From Halichondria panicea (taxonomy: Eukaryota; Porifera; Demospongiae; Suberitida; Halichondriidae): a stretch of DNA of 64,000 bases. Positions within the stretch are counted from its first letter, which is position 1. Every line of letters begins with the position of its first letter. The notes below the pieces were generated by a model. It did not search any database and was not told the origin of the DNA. It saw nothing but the letters and a program-made list of their open reading frames with translations. Shown here piece after piece: positions 6,501 through 39,800 of this stretch. The position numbers were made by a program, and so were the translations under genes. The DNA lies in NCBI RefSeq assembly GCF_963675165.1, contig NC_087390.1:3610001-3674000 (forward strand), written 5' to 3'.

Positions 6501-9500
6501 GGGACTAAAATTAGTGAATTTTGTCGATTAATGTGTTGATGGTACGAAGCATTATATACTAATGTAGTTTTGGGCTGCCATTTATTAACTGGCCTGACTC
6601 AACAAACAATCTGTACCTTTAATTATTGATATCTCCCCAGCAGTCCTAGAGATGTGCGTAGAACTGAACGTAGACGGAGACACTCTGAGAGTGCTCTCAA
6701 GCATGAAGACAGTCGACTAGTATGGAATGAGTTAACACAGTACAAGTCGCTCTGTCAGCAAATGGAACATGACCTGTGAGTGTTTGAGAGTTTAATGCCA
6801 TACTGTGTCATTAAATGGTACAATGTATAATCAAGGGCGCATGAAGAGAAGAGGGCATGCAACTACAATCTATCCTATTACAAATGGGCGGGGGTTTATG
6901 TCTAAAAATAGTATTGCAGTGCACTTTATACTCTTTATTCCCTAGTGGGCGGTGGCTAAATCATGGCTAAATATACATGTAGCATATCCTGCTGACTCAT
7001 CAATAATATGACGCATACACAGTATACATTGTGAGTTGCATGCCCTCTTCTCTTCATACGCCCTTGGTATAATTATGTAGTTTTGGCGGAGCCGCTGTGA
7101 TTAAAGATTAAAGTTGTAGCCACCTTTGTAGAGACATGTACATTATATTGAAACATCGTAATAATTATAATTATTATGTTCCTTCTGATACTAACATTCA
7201 CTAAAAGTTCCCATTGTAACTTGAAAAGTTGTTATTTATAAGGAGGGTAACTTTCACTTCACTGCATATAAGAGTTCTGCTTGAGGAGGAGAGAGACGTT
7301 TTACTGACAAAATGCTCCCGGAACCAGACCACCATCTTTGAGTTGAGAGCCTGTCTGCAACACGAGAAAGATGGTGATGTGATAAGTATACATGTACAGT
7401 ACGTACAATAATTATATCACATAGTGTGCTTTTGAATTTGAAGAATGTGCTACGTACATGTATAGTTTTATGTGCAAATAAATAATTTTATGATTGACTG
7501 TACATGTACATGTAGATCTTGAGAGGAAGGTTGCAGCAATTGCAATGCTTGAAGGCTCTGTTGAGAGTTTCACTCTTCAAGAACAACAGGTACGTATGTA
7601 GTACATTGTACGTACATGTACACGTACTAGTGTATATACAGCTTATCACCTGCTTGCTAATAATTACTGTTTTGTGTACATAGACCATCAGGTCATGTGG
7701 GTGCATACATATTTTTATGCACCCACCATCATTTTTATAATCATTGCGTATGAAATGCTGCTACTTATACTTGTATAGGTTGATGAGCTACAGCACTGTG
7801 TGGATTGCCTGGAAACAGAAAAGAAGCAGCTTTTAACAAAAAACATGTATGCGACGTACATGTGCATGTGCATATAATAGCCTACATAGCTGTCTTCATT
7901 GTACACCTAATAAATGCCAACTGCTCTTACACTTGTATACAGCAATGAAAGGGCTACTTGTTCATGTACGTACACTGTACATGTATTCTATATCAGTTTT
8001 GCTTTTTCTCCTGTCACTAGTGTTCTGGAGAAGCAGTGTGCTGTGTTCTATCAGGAGAGGATTGCTTTAGAATCCACCATTATACAAATGCAACACGAGC
8101 TCTCACGGAAGAACATCAAAGGATTGTGCAAAGCTACTATGACTGAAGCAGCTCTACACTCCCCCTCAACTGACTGCAATCAGTCACCTACCAAATACCA
8201 ACCTTCTTCAAAAACTAAGCTTTCATTCCCCACACCACAGTCAAAAGTTATACAACCCTCCCATTCTCAATCTAAGCCCCTGTTAAACACTTCTTCACCG
8301 ACTCGATCTAGACCCATGCACCAAAAGAAACTAAGTTCCCATCATCAAAGATCCCATTCAGACGGTGACACATTGCCACAGCAGCACAAGCAGCCTCAGT
8401 GGATTGCGAAGGACTCCGAGAGATCAACAAATAGCACAACACCATACGTGTTGACAGTTACTACACCTCACCAAACTGCCAGTGGCAGGACACAAAAAGA
8501 GAGGAGGGGTGTGTGTCGTGATGTGCAGACTTCCTCCACTCAGACAAGAGATCTGGGTCCTCACAAATGTGCTGCGCAGAGCAAGGTTAAGAGGCTAGAG
8601 CAAAGACTGCAGAGTGTCCTGAATAAGGTATTATCTACGTATTCGTATGTAAATGTATGTACAGAGCATTATTATGAAGAAATCAACAATCTATTTCCAT
8701 AAATTAATTGTAATGTCTGACTCAATACGAACTGGTGTTTTGTTTAAATGTTGAGTTTTGTAATTGTTGAGTACCATCCATTTGACATTCTACTGAACCA
8801 GTGCTGAAATGCAAATAACTTGAAATACGATCACTTTCGTACAACTGTTCGATTGTTGTCGGCTGTATGTGCATGCATGGCTATACTATACAAAATTAAC
8901 GTTATAAAATTGCTGTAATTATTCTAGCTGGCTGATGAGAGCCTGGCTAGGACGTCCCTAATTCAGTCACTGAGAGAACAGACCAGTATGAGAGAGAGGT
9001 GCAAAGAAGAGATCCGGGAGATGGGACAGAAAATTCAAGGATACAGGGTCTCCCTTAAGGTTCATACTCTTAACACCATTGTCTAGTGTTGATTTCATTT
9101 CCCTGTGAAAACGTCATTTTCATAACATAGAATACATGTACAAGAATCATGGCGCACGCATGATTATACGTATTGAGATTCTACAATCATAATTATTGAT
9201 AAGTAAATCTTTTACAATGTATAGGTTGCTGAAAGTGAGAGAAATGAAGGGAAACTGAGTATTAAGAAGCTTGAAGATAAAGTGAGGCTCCTGGAATCAT
9301 CAAGCACAATGTCTATGGGGCAAGTAGAGGGGCACATAAAAAGCCTTGAAAAAGAAAAGAAGGTACAGAATTTAACACTCCGTCTAGAGTATTCTGCTAT
9401 TAATTTTGCTACACGCATGTAGGTGTGGTGTGGGGCTTGGCTTATTTTTGTTAGCCTAAGAATTCTATTTACAGTATAAATCCCTTAGCTATACGCTTAA

Positions 9501-17930: not shown

Positions 17931-20900
17931 CTACTGATTGTCCAACAGCGGCTCCCTTAGCTGGCTGAAATCGGCAAATTTCTCCCTAGGTGGAGGAATC
18001 ACTTGAACAGTTGGATTTGGCTTTGCCGCACCGTAATTTGCCGAAACATCGAGCAAACGCCTAGTTTCTTCTTCATTTTCGTCGTCGCCATTTGCAAGAT
18101 TCTTGCGATATTGACTGTACTCAACAAAACGAAGGTACATAAGTATGCCGACTATCAGTAGAAACAACACAAACGTGAAAGCCAGTGAGATATCCGCTAA
18201 GATTGCTTGATCTTCAACACTGTTGGTAGTAGCCCGAATATGGTAAGTGGCAGCAGTAAATATCCCCAGATTCAGTAAAAAAAGTGATTCTAGTGTGTCC
18301 AAAAGCCAGTTGTTAATAAAATTAACGTATCGTTTTTCCTCACTCGCATTTTTCAAGAGCTTCAGTTCGTAAACACCTCCGACAATCCAAGTATAAGATC
18401 CTGTACAGATACAGACTGTTGAAATAGCTAACAGATTTGTACTCGGGTTTCCAAGAAAATTCACTGCAAAGGTTACCAGAATAATAATACGTATTATCAA
18501 AAACAACCCCGGCCAATATCGATGATTTGGCTTGTAAGGTGTGTGGTATCGTTTGAATAATTCATAACAGGTTTTGTAGAGCGATCTTCGAGAAATACAG
18601 CAGGACTCTGTCACAAACTGTGCAAATGTAAGCATTGTGGTGTACGGAAAAACGAAAACAATCAGAACTGCAAGAGAAAAAGCCAATAGAATGGCATGGT
18701 TTCCTTGAGCATAAACCAAGTTGCCATCAAAAAGCCAAACCATAGCAGATTGCAAGTCATTAGACAATTCAATGCTGGCAAATGAAAGACCTGCTAGAAT
18801 AGTGCGTACAATTTTTGTGTAGGACAGCAAGATTACAGTAGCCAGCACAAAGACAGGGTCACCAAGTTTTGCCAACTTTTCAGATGCTGGAATTGAAAGT
18901 TTACAAACAACGATGATCAAAAGAACTAGAAAAAGGAGATACCCAGGAAATACAAACTGTAGCCAGGTCTTCGCATACTGATTCATACCATTGAAGAAAC
19001 ATATTTCGATTCCAAAATCAAGATTTAGCCATGCCAAAAAAATGGACAATCCTTTAAAAGTACCAGATGGTACCATGACAGCTTTGTTTACAGCCACGAT
19101 ATTCGCATAGAATATCAGTCCATGTATTGCACCAGTTTGAACAGTTAGATTGAGAAGAAACAGACAAGTAACAAGCAGAATTCCCATTAGTGCGAAAGGG
19201 ATCAACAGGAAGAGGTAGTAATCTGAGCACTCGGAACAAATTGAGCTACCTAAAAGAAGACTTTTGTCCGTTCCACATGACCCACACAAAATTCCAGACC
19301 GATTATAATTACATTGTGTGTCTGGTGATGTCATAATGACAGGAGCAGAAGGAAACAAACAGTAATCAAATGGACAATTAGGAAAAAACTTCAACCCTGT
19401 GAAATTTCCACTATCATTGTATCTAAGTCCAACCCAAAAATTTGTTGATCTTTCTATTCCACCAGTATCAATGTTGCAACTGGATGTGTACGGCCGCAAA
19501 TGCGAATCACATGCACAAGTATTAACATCAAAAACGAATCCAATGGGACACTCCGAAAACTGAACCATGATACTCTTTGATGTATTCCCCACATCTCGAC
19601 AAGGTCCCTCTGCATACATGGTTAGCTGCTCTGCGTTGTTAGGAGATGAAACTCTAAACTTCAATTTTGTACAACTGTAATTCACTTTCTGGAGAATTCC
19701 TTCGTTTCCAAGTACCTTGTTTGTATTGTTGAAACCTGACACTAGATAGCTTCTGACTAGTGCAACTACACCAACGTCAAGCTCATTACGAACGGAAACA
19801 CTCACAGAAAATTCTTCTCCCCTCCTACTTGTCAAGTTTAGTGTTTGGACGTCACAAACAGGGTTTCCATCTTTATTACAGAAGCACAGCCGATATGGAT
19901 CAGAAGATGCAGCGGAATATATTTCTGAATCACCAAAGTCGGATATGTTTTCAAATGTTTTCAAAACACTTTGGTTATGTTGTGTTATAGGAGTACACCT
20001 ATTGAGCATTCCTCCATACAATGCTGGACCTCCGTCTTGAGCTTCATTATCACCAAACTTCAGTGCCACAGTGTCAGTGAGTTCAATATCAAAGAAACAC
20101 GTTGGTGGTTCTGCATAAACATTTCGTAACCTAATATCGTTCGTGCAGTTGATAAAACTAATAACTTCCTCAACATGGATTGATGAACCAGTCAATGCAA
20201 TGTTTTTATTGAATACAGTTAAAGAATTGGGTGTTATTATAAGTTTTGATCTGTAGAATAAATGAAGAGCACCACCATGTTTTGCTGTGTTCCTAGTAAA
20301 GTTTCCATTTCCAGCAAAAATGATAGTGCTGTCGATCGAATAGATTGCTCCACCATCATCATCAGGTGCCTGATTGTTCTCAAACAGATAGTTGTCCATC
20401 AGCGTCAAAGTGCTTTGGGACATTCCAAGGCCAGCTCCATAATCGTTACTAACGATGTTGTCGGTTATTCTAGTGTACCCGGCAAAAGTAACATTAGAAT
20501 TTTTCAAGTAATGCGGTGGCCGATGGCCAACACTACCCGCCATGGTAGTTGTCCCGTTAAAAGTGCAGCTACTGGATGCAATTAAAATACAAAATGCTCG
20601 ATTTAATGCTTCGTTGTCCAGAAATTCGAATGCTCCCAACACATTAATTGTGCTATGTTGAGAGACGAGTACAGCAGACTGATCTGACGATGCAGAGTTC
20701 CCAGAAATGTGTACTAGTCCATTAACACGCATACTGCTCGCTAGCAAAGTTAATCCAGCAGCTGCTACTAAAGCGGAGTTGTTCTTTATGGATAGAGTGC
20801 CATTCAGCATGAGGACTGTACTTCCCATGAAAAACCCAGCACTATAATCGGCATGATTGTTCACAAAGCTGACATCACCATTAATAGTAATAGTTTGATA

Positions 20901-22031
20901 GACTGACTGAATTCCAACAGTAGCATTGGGTGCGTCCTTTGCTTGATTATTATAGAACATTACTAAACCAGTCCAATTCACACTACTACCCTGCATAGTA
21001 AATGTAGAATGTGAATAATTTTGAATGAGCAAGTTATCATAAGCGAACAATTGTTCGGTGACTGTAAATGGAGAGTTAAAGAAGTAGGCAGAGCCTTGAT
21101 TTCGAGCAAATATTAATGAAGTGAAGGAGACTACAGAATTTGTGATGAAAATTGTAACTTCCAGTTGGATAACATCAGGCAGTCCAGGAACATGCAGTGG
21201 AGGACCAGCTTCGTTGCCGATAAGCTCAAAAGATCCATTAGAAATTAGAACACTGGAATTAATTGCTAGTGGCTGGGGATTCAGATTGTATAAAAATTTG
21301 ATGTTGCCAAAGTTGTACATTGTAGACTCCGTGATCGTCAATGCACTTTCTCCTAAGAAATTACCTTCATTACCAAAGTTTCCTGTGAAATTTGTATTTC
21401 CATAAAAGGTTAAATTGCTTTTTATAGCATAGAATCCGCCAAGTGATCCTGAATTACCTTCGAAAACACAGTCACTAGAGAAAAATAGCTCAGAGAATGA
21501 AGCTTTCAGAATGCTGTACGTTTCATAACCTTGATTTGTTGAAAAGATGGTGTCCACAAAGTGAACAGAACTGGTTGTTACGAGCATGGCACCTCCTAAA
21601 CTACCAGAAATATTTAGTCCATGCAGTGAAGCTGAAGTAACATTCATGAGGGTAATCCCAGAAATATATTGACTTGAGCAGGCTTGAAAAGAGATGTATT
21701 TGAGCTTCAAATTGATCAAATTGAGAAAATGGAGGCTACCCCTAGAATAGCATTGAATGATAACATTAGAAGGTGCTTCAAGACTATTGTTGATCTTGTT
21801 TTCCACTACTAATGAGGAAGTCAAAGCGTGCTCTCCAGGTAGAAACACAAGAGAAACAGATTCGAATGATGATGTATCGGTTTTAGCAAATTCATTCAGA
21901 GTCAGGCATGGTTCAGGGCATGTTGAGGTGCTGTTTTCTGGCTTGATATGAAACACGGCTTGAATTGCAGCTGTACAGCATACACATAAAAGGAGCACCA
22001 GAGGCTTTATCCACTGGTTAAGTCTCTTCAT
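17931..22031 (-). CDS. Beta-helix ectodomain, multi-pass membrane protein (paralogue 2)
   Basis: Uninterrupted 1,366-codon frame with ATG at 22031. Signal peptide from a strong hydrophobic run (PLVLLLCVCC). The ectodomain to about residue 700 is built of short repeats such as NNQAPDDDGGAIYSIDS and RNTAKHGGALHLFYRS, typical of right-handed beta-helices. Then come a part matching paralogue 1 around CFCNKDGNPVCD, a Cys-rich knot (GILCGSCGTDKSLLLGS, CSECSD), and a multi-helix membrane domain from about residue 938. Blocks shared with paralogue 1 in the membrane domain include NGLIFYANI versus HGLIFYANI, CFFNGM, ILLSY and LLLNL/LFLLNL. The cytoplasmic tail is longer, with an acidic stretch and dileucine (EEETRRLLDV), and ends LREPLLDNQ, echoing the REPLL of paralogue 1. 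Function unknown; likely a plasma-membrane or endosomal surface protein. Confidence 0.85.
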   Translation of the reverse strand: MKRLNQWIKPLVLLLCVCCTAAIQAVFHIKPENSTSTCPEPCLTLNEFAKTDTSSFESVSLVFLPGEHALTSSLVVENKINNSLEAPSNVIIQCYSRGSLHFLNLINLKLKYISFQACSSQYISGITLMNVTSASLHGLNISGSLGGAMLVTTSSVHFVDTIFSTNQGYETYSILKASFSELFFSSDCVFEGNSGSLGGFYAIKSNLTFYGNTNFTGNFGNEGNFLGESALTITESTMYNFGNIKFLYNLNPQPLAINSSVLISNGSFELIGNEAGPPLHVPGLPDVIQLEVTIFITNSVVSFTSLIFARNQGSAYFFNSPFTVTEQLFAYDNLLIQNYSHSTFTMQGSSVNWTGLVMFYNNQAKDAPNATVGIQSVYQTITINGDVSFVNNHADYSAGFFMGSTVLMLNGTLSIKNNSALVAAAGLTLLASSMRVNGLVHISGNSASSDQSAVLVSQHSTINVLGAFEFLDNEALNRAFCILIASSSCTFNGTTTMAGSVGHRPPHYLKNSNVTFAGYTRITDNIVSNDYGAGLGMSQSTLTLMDNYLFENNQAPDDDGGAIYSIDSTIIFAGNGNFTRNTAKHGGALHLFYRSKLIITPNSLTVFNKNIALTGSSIHVEEVISFINCTNDIRLRNVYAEPPTCFFDIELTDTVALKFGDNEAQDGGPALYGGMLNRCTPITQHNQSVLKTFENISDFGDSEIYSAASSDPYRLCFCNKDGNPVCDVQTLNLTSRRGEEFSVSVSVRNELDVGVVALVRSYLVSGFNNTNKVLGNEGILQKVNYSCTKLKFRVSSPNNAEQLTMYAEGPCRDVGNTSKSIMVQFSECPIGFVFDVNTCACDSHLRPYTSSCNIDTGGIERSTNFWVGLRYNDSGNFTGLKFFPNCPFDYCLFPSAPVIMTSPDTQCNYNRSGILCGSCGTDKSLLLGSSICSECSDYYLFLLIPFALMGILLVTCLFLLNLTVQTGAIHGLIFYANIVAVNKAVMVPSGTFKGLSIFLAWLNLDFGIEICFFNGMNQYAKTWLQFVFPGYLLFLVLLIIVVCKLSIPASEKLAKLGDPVFVLATVILLSYTKIVRTILAGLSFASIELSNDLQSAMVWLFDGNLVYAQGNHAILLAFSLAVLIVFVFPYTTMLTFAQFVTESCCISRRSLYKTCYELFKRYHTPYKPNHRYWPGLFLIIRIIILVTFAVNFLGNPSTNLLAISTVCICTGSYTWIVGGVYELKLLKNASEEKRYVNFINNWLLDTLESLFLLNLGIFTAATYHIRATTNSVEDQAILADISLAFTFVLFLLIVGILMYLRFVEYSQYRKNLANGDDENEEETRRLLDVSANYGAAKPNPTVQVIPPPREKFADFSQLREPLLDNQ

Positions 22032-23132
22032 AGTGACAGGGGTTCAAGCTACAAGTAGAATAGGGTGTGTCATCATACGTACAATAATAGAACAATACAT
22101 GGATACGTATACTATAAAATTATTGTTTTTATTGGCAATAATAATTGTTGTTACAATTTACACTGCTGGGATTGGTCAAGAAGCACAAAAGCGTGGAAAC
22201 AAGCGAATGTGAATCCGTCACAATAATTTATAAGTCGGTAGGGGTTATGGAATTTCAGACAACATGACACTTCAAACAACCTAGCAAAAACAGACAGAGC
22301 TATGCAGAAACTAAACCAAAGAATACTATGCCTCGTAATCGAACTGGCTGAATAACGTTAAGACGATGTAAAGAAAAACAGTGAAAGATTAATATTAATT
22401 AAGCAGTCTTCCGAGTAAGTAGCTGCACGAGGAATACGGTACATCTGACTGTGTGTCTGTCTGTGTATTCCAGTTGTAACTGCTCAACGGTTGCAAACTA
22501 ACAGCTTCTAGCAACATTTTTATGGATATGGATTCATAGATTTGCAAACGCTTTTTTTGAGCTAGATCTATACTATGGCTAGAAAGGAAAGGAAGAAACG
22601 ACAGCAGATCACGTACTGTAATTTGCGTTTTGATCTTAATTAGTGGAGGCGATAATATTAACCCATGCAGCTACTCAAACATAGAGACGACCATTCTGTT
22701 AATTATATGCAGTGCCTCATGCTGTTATTCGAGGACATTTCGAGGGAAGCTGCCTCTTACAGCTGTTTTTGTCTTGATTTTATACTTTTAATAGCCATAC
22801 TGTTAGCTTTCATAACACTTTCTCTTATTGACATGGATTGGTAATAATTACTTTAGATTGGCTGGCAGAAAAAAGGCCCCCCTTGATCTCACCCAAGACA
22901 CAAGACACAGTTTTGGTTTTGGGGTTTTTTAACTGGTCTTCTATAACCAACTATACAGCACCACCTCTAGCTGACAACGCTGCTCGCCTTCACAGACACT
23001 ACTCTACGGGTTCTAGTCTTGCGACTACAATTATTTATTCTTTGTGTAGAACACAGCCTTGACAGAGCCGGAGGAAGCAAATATGAAGTGGTCAGTCCCA
23101 TAAAGGAATAAGAATAGATCACACTACATGTT
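22032..23132. other. Intergenic, presumed promoter of the beta-helix gene; no other gene
   Basis: AT-rich. Contains GTTTCTAGC- and CAAAAACAGACAGAGCTA-type words that recur near 23,230 and 23,360 and probably belong to a degraded repeat family. No supported exon. Confidence 0.4.
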
Positions 23133-31297: not shown

Positions 31298-33781
31298 TTA
31301 AGCAGCATTTAAGCTGAAAACATTATCACAAAATACATCGACGATGAAGGGTACGGGTTTAGAAGGTGGGAGTTTGTTTCCACTGTAGCTAATACACAAG
31401 AGACTGTATAATGCTTTTGGTAGTCCTTGAGCCTCGAGAACACTGAGCCCAAACCTGTGGAAAAGAGGGTGTAATTATGTAATCAAAATTAATGACAATA
31501 ACAGAAAATAGAATAGCTTGCATTATCTGAAGATTCACTTTACCATGCAAGGAGCACTTGAAAATCTCCTGATTTTACTCACCACACTATTTGTACAGAT
31601 TGTCACAATAACAACAATCATAATTAATAGAGTATACTCTCAATACCACAATAAGGCATTGTTCTGCACACAGTAAATGGGTGTTGTCTGTGTACTACTA
31701 TGGTTACTAGATCTAACCAGGAATGTGTTCACTCTTTGTGTCCTACCAGCTGTTTTAGTGCACTTCTATAACTGCCCATAGATAGAGTAGAAGGGGATTG
31801 GAAACGGAAGTACCCTCGAAGTACCATCCGTGTATCTCCGCGGTTTTAATCGAGGCTTACTTTTTAACACGAGGGCTAAACATGAATAATTCATGAGAAT
31901 TGTTCTGCTCTCTGTAAGAAGTCCACGAGCAGTTCTGCTGCTAAATATCAACTTTCTCTAATACTTGAGCCCATTTGAGACACAGGACACTATTTAGTTA
32001 TGTGTACCTCTAGCTACTTCACGACAATCGAGATTATATTTTCTTTGTTTCCAATTGATACCTACTATCAGGGGGCATGTGATTCAGTAATGGGGGTAGC
32101 TCTGAGATGTATGCTTTGGACACAATAAGTTTCCCGGGCTTTTGCGGGAGTTATGAGGAGATACACGGATGGTCCCAGAGCCACTACGTAGACTTCATTG
32201 TAAAACATCACGTGAATCACTTCCGTTTCCAATCCCTCTTCTACTCTATCTATGAACTGCCATACTGCACAGTAACCCAGAGGAGGTCCGATATGTGTGC
32301 AAGAACTCACTACAAGTGCTGCTGGTGCATTGGCCTGGAAGTTATCATGTGATAGCAATGACATCAATGCACTGTACTTGTAGTGATTCGTACACGCATG
32401 TTGGACCTCCTCTGGATGTAACCAGGAGTACCTGATGTAACCTACTATTTTATATTTTCTTGGCTTAATGCAATGTCTAACCTGAATGATCCTGTGTCTA
32501 TTGGACTGAACTTCGCATCTTGCGCTTCACAAGACAGCTCCAAACGGCCGTACAGCTCCCTGTTAAAATACATTATTACTGTCAAATTAAATTATTGTAT
32601 TCGCAATAGGGGCGGATCTACAGAAAAACTAGTAGGTAGATGCAGAAGCGAAATGGGAGCACAAGCGTATGCCAAAAACAATGCGACCATGTCCACTTCT
32701 GCATCATTTCCGGTGTGTAATTGCACGTGTGCAATAGTAGGTGTGGTTTGCAAGTAAATACTTCGCTGAGTCGGCACTACACTGCAGCTACAGTGCTAGT
32801 CAAGCTTGTAGCACGCTTTAAAAAGACTAACTGTATTAGGTAGGTCTACAGCTACTCAGAATCCAAGAGGGACTTCAATCAGCCAATGAGTGAGACACAC
32901 CATAGATAATTAAATTCTCCAAGCTCAGGGGTCAATCAGCCAATGAATGAGAGAAAATTAAATTCTCCAAGCTCAGGGAGGTGCTTGAGCACCTTTTGCT
33001 ACCCTGTAGATCCGACCCTGAGCAATTCTAACAAAAACTAATACTGTACGTAAAACAAATAAGTTTGGAGGCTCCTGGAGCAAGCTTGTACAATGAAATC
33101 TCGATTACAAAGCTAGCTGGCCAACCATTCTGTATGTGACTACAAAGTACGCATGCAAAAGGTATATCGTTGACTTACTTTGGAGCACGTAGTTTGATCA
33201 TTACTCTTGAAGTGTAAGAGGTGGTGGTAATTCTAAACTGTGGTGAAGCACTCTGACCACTAAACCACTGTCCGCTTATCTGGGAGTGAATGAGAGTGTA
33301 ATCGACACAGCAAACAGAGTAATGTTACAGTAACTTTCGTAAATTAAGTTACTCTTACGTATTGTAGCCAGAAGATATGCGTATGTATATTCTGCATTAA
33401 TGGACAGTAATCTAGTATACATGTACATGTAGGTATACCATGTACATTTGTACCTGTTGATGAAATTCATAGGGTATCGAGACTGGTGAGACAGTGAAGT
33501 CACATGTTGAGTACACCTGCAAAAACAAAAGATCTCACAATCACACGATGTTTTAATTATTCCATTATTCCCATTATTCCCATTTTAATACACGTACTGT
33601 ATTGAAAAGGGAATAGGAGAACAACTTTTTTACATGTACATGCGTAAGAGTACATAATTATATGGTAATTAATGAATATAGGTGTAATTATGGTCAAGGG
33701 CCGAAGGTTTACAAAACACCATTAAAGTATAAGTACACATGAAGTCGTCATTTACTACAGTGACGTACTCCATAAAGTAAC

Positions 33782-33841
<60 letters not shown>

Positions 33842-36800
33842 GGGGGGGTTGAGGTAAAGATGAGTCAATTGTAAGAAGGAACAATAGGACAATTACTACT
33901 GAAACCTAAAGATATTATAACATGTGACAGCTCAGTATGAGAAGGTGATTAGCAAATGTTAAATCGTTTGTGTATACGAACCAATTTTTACTCAACAGTA
34001 TTGTATGTAAACAGTGCTACAATACACAAACACAGAAACATCCCAAAAGGAGAGAAGCCATGTTAATCCTTGAATTAACAGTCATAGCAGCACAAACACA
34101 CATTAAAGCTGCCAAGAGAATTAGACCGCTACTAAACATGGGGTATAAAAGGCACAGCAGAACTCACAGAATGCTGCTACATGTATATACGTTGTGAATG
34201 CAAGACTAACAAAATGAATCATACAAGGCTGACGATACTCCTTGCATTTCTCTCAGTGAGTACACACACAGTATTCTCATATAGTATATAGTACACGTGT
34301 AAATAATAGTCTAATAAGTATGCTTGTATAGGTATGTGCTCATGGGTCATACTTGGTTCAGCTGAGAGTCAACTCATACGAGAATCCTTTGAACAGATGT
34401 GCAGAGTGTAGTCTAGCCAATCCACTACAAGGACCATTTGGCTGTTGTGACGGATTTGACGTAACAGGTGTATGCAGTGAATCGAAAAGATGTGACAACT
34501 ACTTTAGATATTGTCTGCGAGACTATGCCACTCCACCCGAGACACTGGGCTGCACCCTAGGAGGGGAAATAACTAGCGAGACTCCAGAAGAAGAGGACTA
34601 TAATAGGGACACTGATTTTTCAAGTTCGAGTGTGCTGGGCTTGGAAAACCCACTCAATCTACAAGGAGTGGAGCGTCTATGGCAGGTGTGTGTGCATGTG
34701 CAGCTGGTGGGTACATGTATGTTAGATCTATGTAATGACTACACTAACTAACAAAAAAATCTGAGTTGGGTCCGAGTGGGTGGTGGGTGGTTTTTGTGAA
34801 GTGTATAAGTAAAGCAAGCTAACAGCAAACAGTGAGCAAATTCTATAATTATGGACATGCTCTTGCAGGGAGTTCAACTATACATCCAAGCAATTGACTA
34901 TGACCAAGATAATGGCGATGACCTCATAGACACATTTGCTGTTGACATTTCACCATCACTAGTGGCTGGGTCACCAGATAGCAGTATGTTACGCTACTCT
35001 GGGAGATTTAACCTAGCAAGAATACTTTTAAGCTACAGGATACTCTGCCAGCAGTTCTTCTATGGGGACTCCTGCCAGAACTATGACGAATGTGCAGCCC
35101 AGAGTGTACTGTGTCAAAACAATGGAGTATGCATCAACGAAGAGGACAATTTTCGGTGCCAATGCAGAGGAGGCTACTCGGGACAGTATTGTGAGAACGT
35201 AGAATACTGCTTTGGCGTCAACTGTACCAACAGAGGGAAGTGTCACGAAGAAACAAGTTCATATGTTTGTGTCTGTGATTCTGGGTACACCGGTCAACTT
35301 TGTGAAACTGAAATTGATGAATGTGTAGGAGTCAACTGCACCGGTAGGGGAGAGTGTGTGGATGGGCTTGACACATTCAGTTGTTTCTGCAACCCAGGGT
35401 ATACAGGACAGTTGTGTGCTTCACAAATCACAACACCAGGTAAACTCTCAGCAGCTAGTAGTGATACAGTACAACTTATTTATTCTCCTAGGTAGATTAC
35501 ACATTAATTTTGACTAAAGACTTCGTTCCCACTCAGAATTGCTTGTAGGAGACCTGTTTGTACCAGAGCTAGCAGGAGGAATCATTGGCGGTGTGATGTT
35601 TATTATTCTAATTTTTATCTCTGCTGCTGCAGTGGCATATTTGCTTAAGCGACAGAAAGACAAAAAGGAAATAACACCTTCAAGTAAGAGCAAAGAGCTT
35701 ATTTCTAGCCTGAATGTAGAAAGTAAAAAGTAAGTGTGTACGTTAGGTACATGCCCTTTGTGTACGTTAACGTATACGCCTATATTTGTAATAATTATAG
35801 CAAAGTTGTGGTTATTTTGATATGTGAATCAGTAATTGATACAGATCTAGATGACTACCATGCGTACGGACAAGACAACACAGTGCATACAACACCCATG
35901 ACTCCACAGCGCTATGTCCGAGCTAGTTCCACCAATAGCCTCAGTAATTCTACACACACAGGAGTCAGCCTACAGTCATGTAAGTACGCCTCTATAGTTC
36001 ACGTGGCATTTGAAGGGAAAAAATCATGGTATAATAAAGATAGCTATTTGATTTTGGAGACATAATTGTATGTATAATAGTAATATTATAATTTTTTATC
36101 TCTATACTAAGTCTGCTGGCACATGCTCATGTATATAGATACAAGGGACATGCCCATGCATGGAGCACCTTGGACTGACCAGCGCAGAAGTTACACCAAC
36201 AGTTCCATCTGTACTGCCATCAGTCTACGATCATGTAAGCCTTGGTTTATGGGTAGTCAGTAGAGCAGAGCAGAGTAGGAGACGTTCTGTTTAAGGTTCT
36301 ACTTATACTGGCATGGTCACTTCACTAGCAACATGACTGATTGAGCATACATGCATGCATGTACATATACATGTATCATTAAAGACTCGCCATACCGGCA
36401 GCTACAGTAGTTAATATGTTTATCTGATTTAGATAACAATGGACGGGACAACCCAGTCTATGGGGCACCCCACCTCCCTGCTAGGAACAGCTATGCAAGC
36501 CGATCAAACACTTCGATTGCCACTGGAATCAGCATACAATCAGGTATGCGCCCTGAGACACATGGAAGTCATGTGATTTAGTGCCTGTTTTGGATAATTC
36601 GAGTTTACTAAAACCATTTCACATAGCATCACTAATACATAGGTATAACTATATGTGGGCCTATGCTGTATATCGAATGTTTTGCGAGCATCAAACATAG
36701 CAAATTTTGCGAGTGTTGATTACTTCGCAAAACCTATGCTGGTACTGGTTATAATGACATACGATCCCTGCTAGAAAGCAATAGTTTGATTGAAGCTGAT

Positions 36801-39800
36801 TTGGCTCATTACGCAAAATATTATAGTAATACGGTACTACATGAAATTCAACTGAATATATAGACTGTATGTCAGCCATAATTATTTTATTGATCAGATA
36901 CTAATGGACGGGACAACACAGTCCATGGGGCACCAGATGGTGGTCAACTCCCAGCTAGAAACAGCTACACAAGCAGGTCAAATATTTCCATCACCACTGG
37001 AATCACTCTTTTATCACGTAAGTACATGCACACTTCACCTGATCTTAATGCATGAATCTCTTGAATCATAAATAAATAACTAAGTCATTATTATGGTACA
37101 CGTTTATATCGTATAATTGTGACTCGCGGGCATAATTTTTAAGGTTAGAGGTCAATTCGCGAAAATTGCAAACATTAAACGCCTTGGGGTACGATATCAC
37201 AATTATGATACCATGTGCGTAATGGCATGAAGGGGCTGTTATATATAGTAAACACTAAACTCTTGTCCTAACTGAGACGTGAAGTTAGGTATGTCTGTTT
37301 CATGGGGTAGTAAAGAGTTTTGTTCGAATCAATGTACTTCTTTGCACATACAGAGACTGATTTGAGTGGCAGTGATGATCAGATATATGCTGAGCCCATC
37401 CTTCATACAACAAATCATGGTGGGGACGATTGTGAGATGGAGCGGGAGTTTCAAAATCCCCTCTACCGATCATCAGAGGACATCACAGATAACGATGATA
37501 AGACCTTCTCTTTTGTGGGTGCTACTGGTACCTACTTATCAACACTTCAGGACAATGAGTGCCTCATATAAATAATAATTATTGTCATTGTCATAGGAGT
37601 ATAATTATTGCGCTTAACCACAAAATTACAACATTTCCAAGCTTTGCACAGTAGGGTTTGTACATAATAAATATAATTATATCGGAGACAAGAGATACAT
37701 GGCAATGTTTCTAATGTAACCACATAGATACATGTGTACAGGTGACTACCGATAAATTGGTACATGCATGTACATCTACTGTAGAAACTTGATTGTTAGC
37801 GCGTACTCGATTATATTTAATTTTTCGGAAGAGCAGCACTTTTGCAGCATGCGTGCGATATTAAATTCGTGGGTATAAAATGTTCGCGGTACATGTTTAA
37901 TCAGCGAACATTTATACTCTCGATATATACCCGCTATACGGTATAATTATAGCTGCATGGTGTATCAATCTGGAAGGACTCTGTTACCTGTGTCATCAAC
38001 CTGAGAAAATTCGACTTCAATGAGGTGGATTTGTTCCAGTTTCCTGGTCAATTTTGTGAATGTTTAAGACTGCTTGCTTGCCTATCGCTCCTGCAGTCGC
38101 TCGCTTTCCAAGCTGCTAACTTAGCTAGCTTAGCAGTGGAGCCATTGATCGTCACAGTGACATTCGGTTGGGTGCTGGATCGGCTCAAAAATGACCATGC
38201 ATAGATGAGTGCATAGAGCTCTGCTATTGACCACATCGGTGCATACGATAATAATTGGTTTCTACGATATATATTTTCCACATTCCCTCTTCAGGGTACG
38301 TACTATGCAATAGTACACAAAGGCGGCACATTAGCTTCATACACTGTCTATGTGCATAATAATCAATCATGAACAATTTATTGATTAGTTTGCTTTGACA
38401 TCAATGGCCTACTACAAACATAATTATGCATGTTTGCTGTCAAAACATATGACACTACACAGGTTTTATGGATATGACAATCAAGTTAAGCGAGTCATGT
38501 TTTATAGCATGCTAGATAATGAGCCAGGAATCGTAGCTAAATTACATTAAGCTATATGAATGTTTGCCCACAAAACCAAATTAGAATTACTGCCTTTACA
38601 CACTCTGTGCCAATTATTTATACATGCAGGCAATGTGTAGATGCGAGTGCCCTCTTATGAGATAATTATAATTATGGTTTTAACATGATCACAAACTGAA
38701 AGATTTGTTTAATATATCCTATAGACAATTACTTGGAAAATGCATAGACTACAAGTATACATGCATATGAGATCGGTATTTAAGCATGGGGTACCATATA
38801 ATACTCACTCTGAGAGTGTAGTAGATAGTGCTGAGGCTCTCCAGCTGCGACACAATGACAGTGTAGGAAGAGGCGCCTCGTGGAACATTCTCCAGTTTGG
38901 CCAGATAGTGTGGCGTGTTGATCTTTATTCCCGTCACATGGAATTTTTCTATGAGTTAACAGCAAAATGTGCCTACACAATGTCTGGATACAAACCGACT
39001 ACATATAATTATGTTCATGTACTAAAATAATCACTCTACTTGCATGGGACATTTACTAGTTTAACATGCAGGTGTACATGTTAATATACTTGTATATATA
39101 CATGTACACAAATTGTGAGGACTGATATTAAACCAGCAAGAGAATATTGCAATAACACAGAGACGGGGAAATTAGGATGACACATTCACATACATGACTG
39201 CGTACATGTACGTACCAGGATAGAATATCCTCTTCCCGTCACTCTTTGCAATGTGCAGTGTGATGAACTTCTCATTGTGGGCAAAGTCATTCTGCACAGA
39301 AATAAAAGCAGTCAGCTAATACCAGACCTATACAGTGTACCACTGGAAACACTAATATACCGAGATTCAGTGTAAACGCAGCAAATGAGCTAGGATGCAT
39401 ACAGGACGTAATAATTAACTTACATGACATTCATGTAGCCTAGGCACGTATGCAATTGTACTAAACTACAGTACAGTGTACAAGAGTACAAACCTTGGCA
39501 GTGATGTGTCTGGAGAGCAGTACCCAGACTGTGGCCACACCCTCACCACCATTGTTCACCCTCAGGGTGTACTGTGGATTGTTGCCTGTACATAAGCAGC
39601 GATACAAATCTTATATACATGTATTTTAGCATAATTGTCATGTATAACTATACACGTGTATCCAATGGCCATAAGCGTCAACATGCAGGCTTCTTTCAAG
39701 GTGATTCAACTTCACAAGCAGGAACCAATTAGCTGCCTGGTTATTAGGTACTACACACATGTACAAACACGCCTACTTACTGATGTCATACCAGTCCTTC

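Follow-up and report, generated by a model that had tools for sequence, protein, structure and literature searches.

Four tandem tail exons and two putative, widely spaced NPxY sites in a DSL-less relative of Delta-type Notch ligands from the sponge Halichondria panicea

Why would a cell-surface protein carry four successive copies of one tail exon when three of the copies lack the tyrosine on which the motif of interest depends? The question is raised by a gene of the sponge Halichondria panicea in a stretch of 64,000 nucleotides (hereafter the window; assembly GCF_963675165.1, contig NC_087390.1, positions 3,610,001 to 3,674,000 of the forward strand). In known receptors, NPxY and FxNPxY motifs are docking sites for PTB-domain adaptors, and a first-pass annotation of the window, made from its letters, had described four phase-1 exons encoding a common module with an NPxY-type motif. 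Our analysis indicates that these exons are old and coding, and that their duplication probably changed the spacing of docking sites in the tail, not their number. The exons concerned, named A to E here, are as follows.

35845..35979, + strand: module exon A, 135 nt, reading DNTVH, phase 1 at both ends.
36139..36234, + strand: module exon B, 96 nt, reading DMPMH, phase 1 at both ends.
36433..36543, + strand: module exon C, 111 nt, reading DNPVY, the sole copy with an intact NPxY, phase 1 at both ends.
36898..37017, + strand: module exon D, 120 nt, reading DNTVH, phase 1 at both ends.
37354..37571, + strand: terminal exon E, with DDQIYAEP and EFQNPLY, the counterpart of a tail exon in paralogues.

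The borders and phases given by the first-pass annotation proved exact: each of A to D is flanked precisely by AG and GT, has a length that is a multiple of 3 (32-45 aa per copy), and begins and ends in phase 1. That all four encode the same module was borne out by the alignment for which the annotation had asked, with six of six pairs scoring above all 5,000 shuffles; the pair C and D, for example, reaches 121 against a best shuffle of 47 (n = 5,000). Exons C and D differ by 13 synonymous changes over 27.5 sites (synonymous divergence, dS, 0.746) and by 11 nonsynonymous changes over 83.5 sites (nonsynonymous divergence, dN, 0.145), which gives a dN/dS of ~0.19 (p = 0.0009, Fisher test on rounded counts), and this pair is under purifying selection. 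The remaining five pairs have dN values of 0.50-0.56 and dS values of 1.8-2.7 (in one case dS could not be computed), and this saturation of dS lets little be inferred there beyond great age. The A-D exons are coding and old. The introns between them have nothing in common beyond matches of 9-13 bases (E no better than 0.25), and these unrelated introns, together with the high dS, rule out an assembly artefact or a recent duplication. A tail-peptide search of 35440-38000 found no convincing extra copy or relic of the module, the best additional match being 8 residues on the opposite strand (E 0.011); an exact DNA pattern of the module motif had 0 matches in the genome, but the pattern was a back-translated guess and is not informative.

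The motifs that had been read in these exons (DNTVH, DMPMH, DNPVY, and DNTVH, then QNPLY in the last exon) are correct. At the tyrosine position A, B, and D have His (codon CAT), while C has Tyr (TAT); D differs from C at the Pro as well as the Tyr of the NPxY despite the low dN/dS. The columns invariant across A-D are D, P, R, N, S, T, and S, which include neither NP nor Tyr, and a Pro stands at +3 after the Y/H of all four copies, as it also does after the first Tyr of exon E. Since only C holds an NPxY, skipping A, B, or D would alter the length and spacing of the tail and leave the number of its NPxY motifs unchanged.

Two NPxY sites are found in the tail, DNPVY in exon C and EFQNPLY, which has the FxNPxY form, in exon E, 105 residues apart. 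Within exon E the two motif tyrosines (Y1 and Y2) are separated by 26 residues, and the exon is mixed, with NP at the second motif only; the whole tail has 12 tyrosines, none of them in YxxL/I/V. When exon E was compared with the modules, the score was reached by 21 (C-E), 336 (D-E), 670 (B-E), and 1,668 (A-E) of 5,000 shuffles, and the exon as a whole has no clear similarity to A-D. Searched against the genome, the 226-aa tail returned six matches, five of which are the gene's own exons; the sixth, on the contig labelled C6 (E 0.485), was taken as chance. This result does not imply that paralogues are tail-less, because short DNPVYG matches are found in them.

To place the tail in its protein, we used a spliced model of nine exons (34214-37571, + strand) that encodes 610 aa, of which the first four exons are listed here.

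34214..34255, + strand: exon 1, the ATG and most of the presumed signal peptide (by eye), donor CTCTCA/gtgagt.
34332..34685, + strand: exon 2, MNNL match PF07657.
34869..35439, + strand: exon 3, the remaining N-terminal region, a DSL-like first cysteine pair (by eye), and three EGF repeats.
35537..35722, + strand: exon 4, stem, hydrophobic transmembrane segment, and basic juxtamembrane stretch, phase 1 at its end.

Apart from the N-terminal one, the protein has a single hydrophobic segment (by eye), and the module exons lie behind it, in agreement with the cytoplasmic position first proposed for them. The MNNL match scores 25.9 bits in the whole protein and 24.8 bits in the exon alone (cut-off 22.5) and is partial, extending over profile positions 22-72 and 22-68, respectively, of 157; PF00008 (EGF) matches three stretches. 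At E up to 1 the protein gave no match to DSL (PF01414), none of the 33 DSL matches in the genome lies at this gene, and the DSL-like first cysteine pair leads directly into an EGF repeat (by eye). A search of the genome with the NOD profile gave 0 matches, as did its controls, so that it is uninformative; PMC6040629 suggests that NOD is missed in sponges owing to the model. The predicted product is an MNNL-EGF-transmembrane surface protein related to Delta-type Notch ligands in which no DSL is detected.

Across the genome, MNNL has 58 matches at E up to 1, of which 39 exceed the cut-off; for 14 of the 58 a DSL match follows on the same strand, at most 3.5 kb downstream, and for 44 none does, and these MNNL and DSL counts, which arise exon by exon, are lower bounds. 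The window gene falls in the larger, DSL-less set. In an MNNL tree (44 matches, reduced to 41 rows of at least 75 residues and to 39 after removal of two duplicates) its row forms a long branch of unsure placement, with a best identity of 41% over 99 columns. MNNL-type genes are greatly expanded in tandem arrays on contigs C6 (3.97-4.03 Mb), C14 (5.64-5.73 Mb), and C12 (1.81-1.87 Mb), and an ectodomain search adds arrays on C15 (1.07-1.32 and 2.18-2.30 Mb), mainly by weaker matches. When relatives were sought in other genome contigs, the one match came from a bacterial metagenome-assembled genome; it is an EGF-type stretch and not a useful relative.

Tails of the paralogues were read in a set of 23 genome stretches (labelled L033, L042, and so on). 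The tail exon follows the transmembrane exon, the two being separated by a phase-1 intron (read directly in L042), and in the paralogues whose tail was read both motifs fall within one exon, for example GDTISYIPGDNPVYGIP-ENRTNRTNTITSETA-EFDNPIYGSQ. DNPVYG and EFDNPxY (EFDNPLY or EFDNPIY) occur at corresponding places, which strengthens the reading of DNPVY in exon C and EFQNPLY in exon E as genuine NPxY motifs, and the Y1-Y2 spacing in five paralogues is 22-34. Exon E resembles the tails of L041, L042, L036, L033c, and L033b (0, 1, 4, 4, and 5 of 2,000 shuffles, respectively, reaching the score), and exon C, which matches the first half of the paralogue tail exon, resembles those of L042, L033b, L036, and L041 (1, 2, 3, and 3 of 2,000). 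When the window was scanned with a profile built from the paralogue tails, exons E and C came out as its two top frames, with E-values (0.048 and 0.24) that are weak alone. In the tail alignment of 37 rows, all 28 that cover motif 1 have its Tyr and 17 of these have lost the NP, in a collection that a Tyr-less and otherwise much diverged tail could escape, the motif expression having demanded Tyr and the tail profile having been seeded with Tyr-bearing tails. Such retention of Tyr even without NP makes the three His of A, B, and D unusual.

Counting module copies in relatives, as the first-pass annotation had advised, gave a divided result: the paralogues do have a two-motif tail exon, but a module profile run on 13 paralogue loci detected no further copy better than E 0.043 (L042), the long gaps between transmembrane segment and tail in L033 and L041 not being searched further. 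Matches to exon A at many loci by tblastn (E 0.002 and up) were set aside as chance, being antisense to genes, in their EGF-coding part. In L037 the two-motif unit (NNVVYG...EYDYPLC) occurs twice in tandem inside the tail exon (sense ~1200-1500), so tail units have also been duplicated by a different route. L049 (sense ~8480-8650) has an NP-type tail whose frame is broken after the first NPxY and is possibly a pseudogene or an assembly error.

Several observations weigh against a common origin of these tails. The apparent link between the window tail and the paralogue tails is one of short motifs, and it weakens in part of the set: exon E is matched by 21 of 2,000 shuffles against L033a and by 291 against the NP-less L041dec, exon C by 34-56 against L033c, L033a, and L041dec, and against L051 the counts are 32 for C and 58 for E. 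Against seven paralogue tails the ranges are 121-1,801 for A, 19-1,767 for B, and 97-1,350 for D, and with such weak or absent matches these three are joined to the paralogues mainly through C. On the other side stands the strand bias of the motif: in frames of at least 30 aa at the 23 loci, NPxY occurs 51 times on the sense strand vs. 4 on the antisense strand, a contrast that counts extracellular NPxY such as CNPPY as well; for the DNPxY/FxNPxY type the numbers are 25 and 1. Exons A-D may be of other origin, with exon C having converged on DNPVY.

The account that we favour, and to which we give somewhat better than even credence, is that the first half of an ancestral two-site tail exon was copied and multiplied to A-D, leaving two spaced NPxY sites. 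In its older form the tail was probably a single phase-1 exon that carried the two tyrosine sites xDNPVYG and EFxNPxY at a distance of 22-34 residues, and we infer that adaptors with a PTB domain, of the endocytic or engulfment kind, probably dock at both. A copy of the first half would have been inserted between the transmembrane and tail exons and expanded there to four exons, with the source and direction of this duplication inferred. The role of the first NPxY would then have moved to DNPVY in exon C, and the original site in E would have decayed to DDQIY; A, B, and D would have persisted as coding sequence, and the segment that they encode, rich in Ser/Thr and containing Arg, probably serves as a spacer or for phosphorylation. 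If A, B, or D were skipped, the spacing would be tuned; skipping C would remove one of the two sites. Most likely, the two separated sites of the present tail are docking points for PTB adaptors that act in endocytosis or engulfment. PTB/PID domains have 10 matches in the genome at E up to 0.01, all 10 above the cut-off.

The invariant columns of A-D, with NP and Tyr excluded, and the Pro at +3 of the Y/H and of the first Tyr of E would also suit a Ser/Thr or SH2 module, in which selection acts on the [YH]xxP ending and on the second half, rich in Arg, Ser, and Thr, and NPxY is incidental; its putative partners would be basophilic kinases, 14-3-3, or SH2 domains that bind YxxP in C and E. Paralogue tails, however, have not lost the Tyr, and one class of them has both NPxY motifs; we regard this explanation as unlikely. 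The first-pass annotation had instead envisaged "adjustable numbers of docking motifs", that is, four interchangeable NPxY docking exons whose number is set by skipping; symmetric phase 1 and modular similarity are what this would produce, but the claim is weak with an NPxY in one of four exons, His in place of Tyr in A, B, and D, and the loss of Pro and Tyr between C and D despite low dN/dS, and we consider it improbable. That the duplicates are simply drifting in a disordered, weakly constrained tail of little function would fit three copies without Tyr, the variable copy lengths, and the lack of a close sister gene, but there is little reason to expect it given the C-D dN/dS, four open frames, and a full set of splice sites, a counterargument limited by the saturation of synonymous sites, which keeps selection on A and B from being cleanly visible.

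The paralogue tails fall into two classes. In the first, both motifs contain NP (DNPVYG and FDNPxY); the second mostly has NNVVYG and [FY]DYPLC and, in many cases, VSYATV and YDDV further on. Of 24 rows judged for both motifs, with 13 of the 37 set aside for gaps, 10 have NP at both, 14 at neither, and 0 are mixed; rows are not genes, since L037 is counted twice and two L049 rows are identical in the tail. Loci with the two classes are L033, L035, L036, L037-L042, L046, L049, and L050 (contigs C5, C6, C9, C10, C12, C14, C15, and C17), and the arrays of L035, L036, L041, L046, L049, and L050 tend to follow the order NP-less, (NP-less,) NP in strand direction, which is what duplication of whole pairs or triplets might produce. 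Splicing to a shared constant tail, as in protocadherins, was rejected for these arrays, where NP-less genes own a homologous tail exon.

On a tree of the MNNL exon from 24 genes, with tail labels assigned from gene position and order, the tail label needs 10 changes, the maximum possible with 10 NP genes; shuffled labels need 8.0 on average, and none of 500 shuffles needs more than the observed number. The bootstrap of this tree is not settled, many inner branches are weak, and long branches meet, and its well-supported branches alone force 6 changes. On a tree of the tails themselves (21 of the 24 genes) the label changes once, with support of 95/99. The 24-gene tree omits L033_7021 as too divergent, and L034, L035_8160, L047, L048, L051, L052, L053, the DSL genes, and the window gene as having no assigned tail of either kind; L049_6784 is labelled NP despite its frame broken after the first motif, and the tail tree omits L035_2623, L038_73, and L046_2065, which are partial or split.

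Individual pairs were compared at the DNA level. In L036, the NP-less gene and the NP gene share 88-91% identity over MNNL and part of the EGF region, after which, starting ahead of the transmembrane segment, no match is left at E up to 0.001; the first and third genes of the L035 array show 92% and 91% identity and then, likewise, no match at E up to 0.001. The NP genes of L036 and L042, which belong to different clusters, are 72% identical at the MNNL end and 87% identical from the EGF region through the tail. These L036 and L035 pairs fit ectodomain exchange or homogenisation between genes with different tails. The NP-less/NP pair of L041 is similar along the whole gene (79-90%) and requires no exchange.

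On this basis we propose, tentatively and at a little under even confidence, a paired-receptor system built from Notch-ligand parts. In it, the ectodomains of DSL-less MNNL-EGF arrays would be homogenised or shuffled between tails with two or three NPxY motifs (for uptake) and NP-less tails that keep Tyr (for non-uptake or signalling), and the window gene would be a diverged singleton whose tail was changed by exon amplification from a compact to a long-spaced two-NPxY form. The window gene itself has no close sister, that is, no gene elsewhere with a near-identical ectodomain and a different tail.

Two further features of the window may be recorded. A (GT)n microsatellite ending in a G run (~33781-33850) lies ~365 bases upstream of exon 1. 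On the - strand, an open frame spans 17931-22043 (1370 aa, stop to stop); by eye it has repeats near its N terminus and several hydrophobic segments towards its C terminus, and Pfam gave only a sub-threshold match, to Chlam_PMP (E 0.071).

The wider question is how recognition at the cell surface became linked to uptake or signalling in early animals, and here several known systems offer comparison. The LDL-receptor-type internalisation signal is FxNPxY, a form matched by EFQNPLY here and by EFDNPLY/EFDNPIY in the paralogues, although the LDL-receptor ectodomain is unrelated. CED-1, Draper, and MEGF10 are single-pass proteins with extracellular EGF-type repeats, and their layout is approached by the window protein, which also has NPxY in its tail; the window protein differs in its MNNL N terminus and in a tail that does not combine NPxY with YxxL, while paralogues have VSYATV. 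The NPxY of MEGF10 is reported to bind the PTB adaptor GULP/CED-6, and further tyrosine motifs are present (PMC5712531). Among Notch ligands themselves, SNX17, which binds NPxY receptors, is reported to speed the recycling of Jag1a (PMC8720881), and this is a precedent for an NPxY reader acting on a Notch ligand, with no exon amplification described there. The closer sponge comparison is with the five Deltas of Amphimedon queenslandica, which share an MNNL-type cysteine pattern, EGF repeats (in four of the five), and a single transmembrane segment, but which all have DSL; their tails are divergent, with predicted PTB/SH2 sites that are ELM matches without significance per the authors, and tandem tail exons or an NPxY pair are not described in the accessible portion of that report (PMC3482393). 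The literature on sponge Notch ligands, NPxY tails, and paired receptors, covered mainly as titles and abstracts and sparsely for subscription journals, gave no account of such a gene family or of its exchange of tails, and a DSL-less Notch-ligand relative with an amplified NPxY tail appears to be new. Finally, in the CEACAM and Siglec-11/16 paired receptors, as described in PMC5112662 and PMC5701461, ectodomains are exchanged or homogenised between genes with different tails; the domains are unrelated to those considered here, and the resemblance, known from sequence alone, does not imply opposing signals, but the paralogue pairs in L035 and L036 similarly join near-identical ectodomains to two tail types and, if the proposal is true, would extend the paired-receptor design beyond vertebrates and beyond immunoglobulin or lectin folds.

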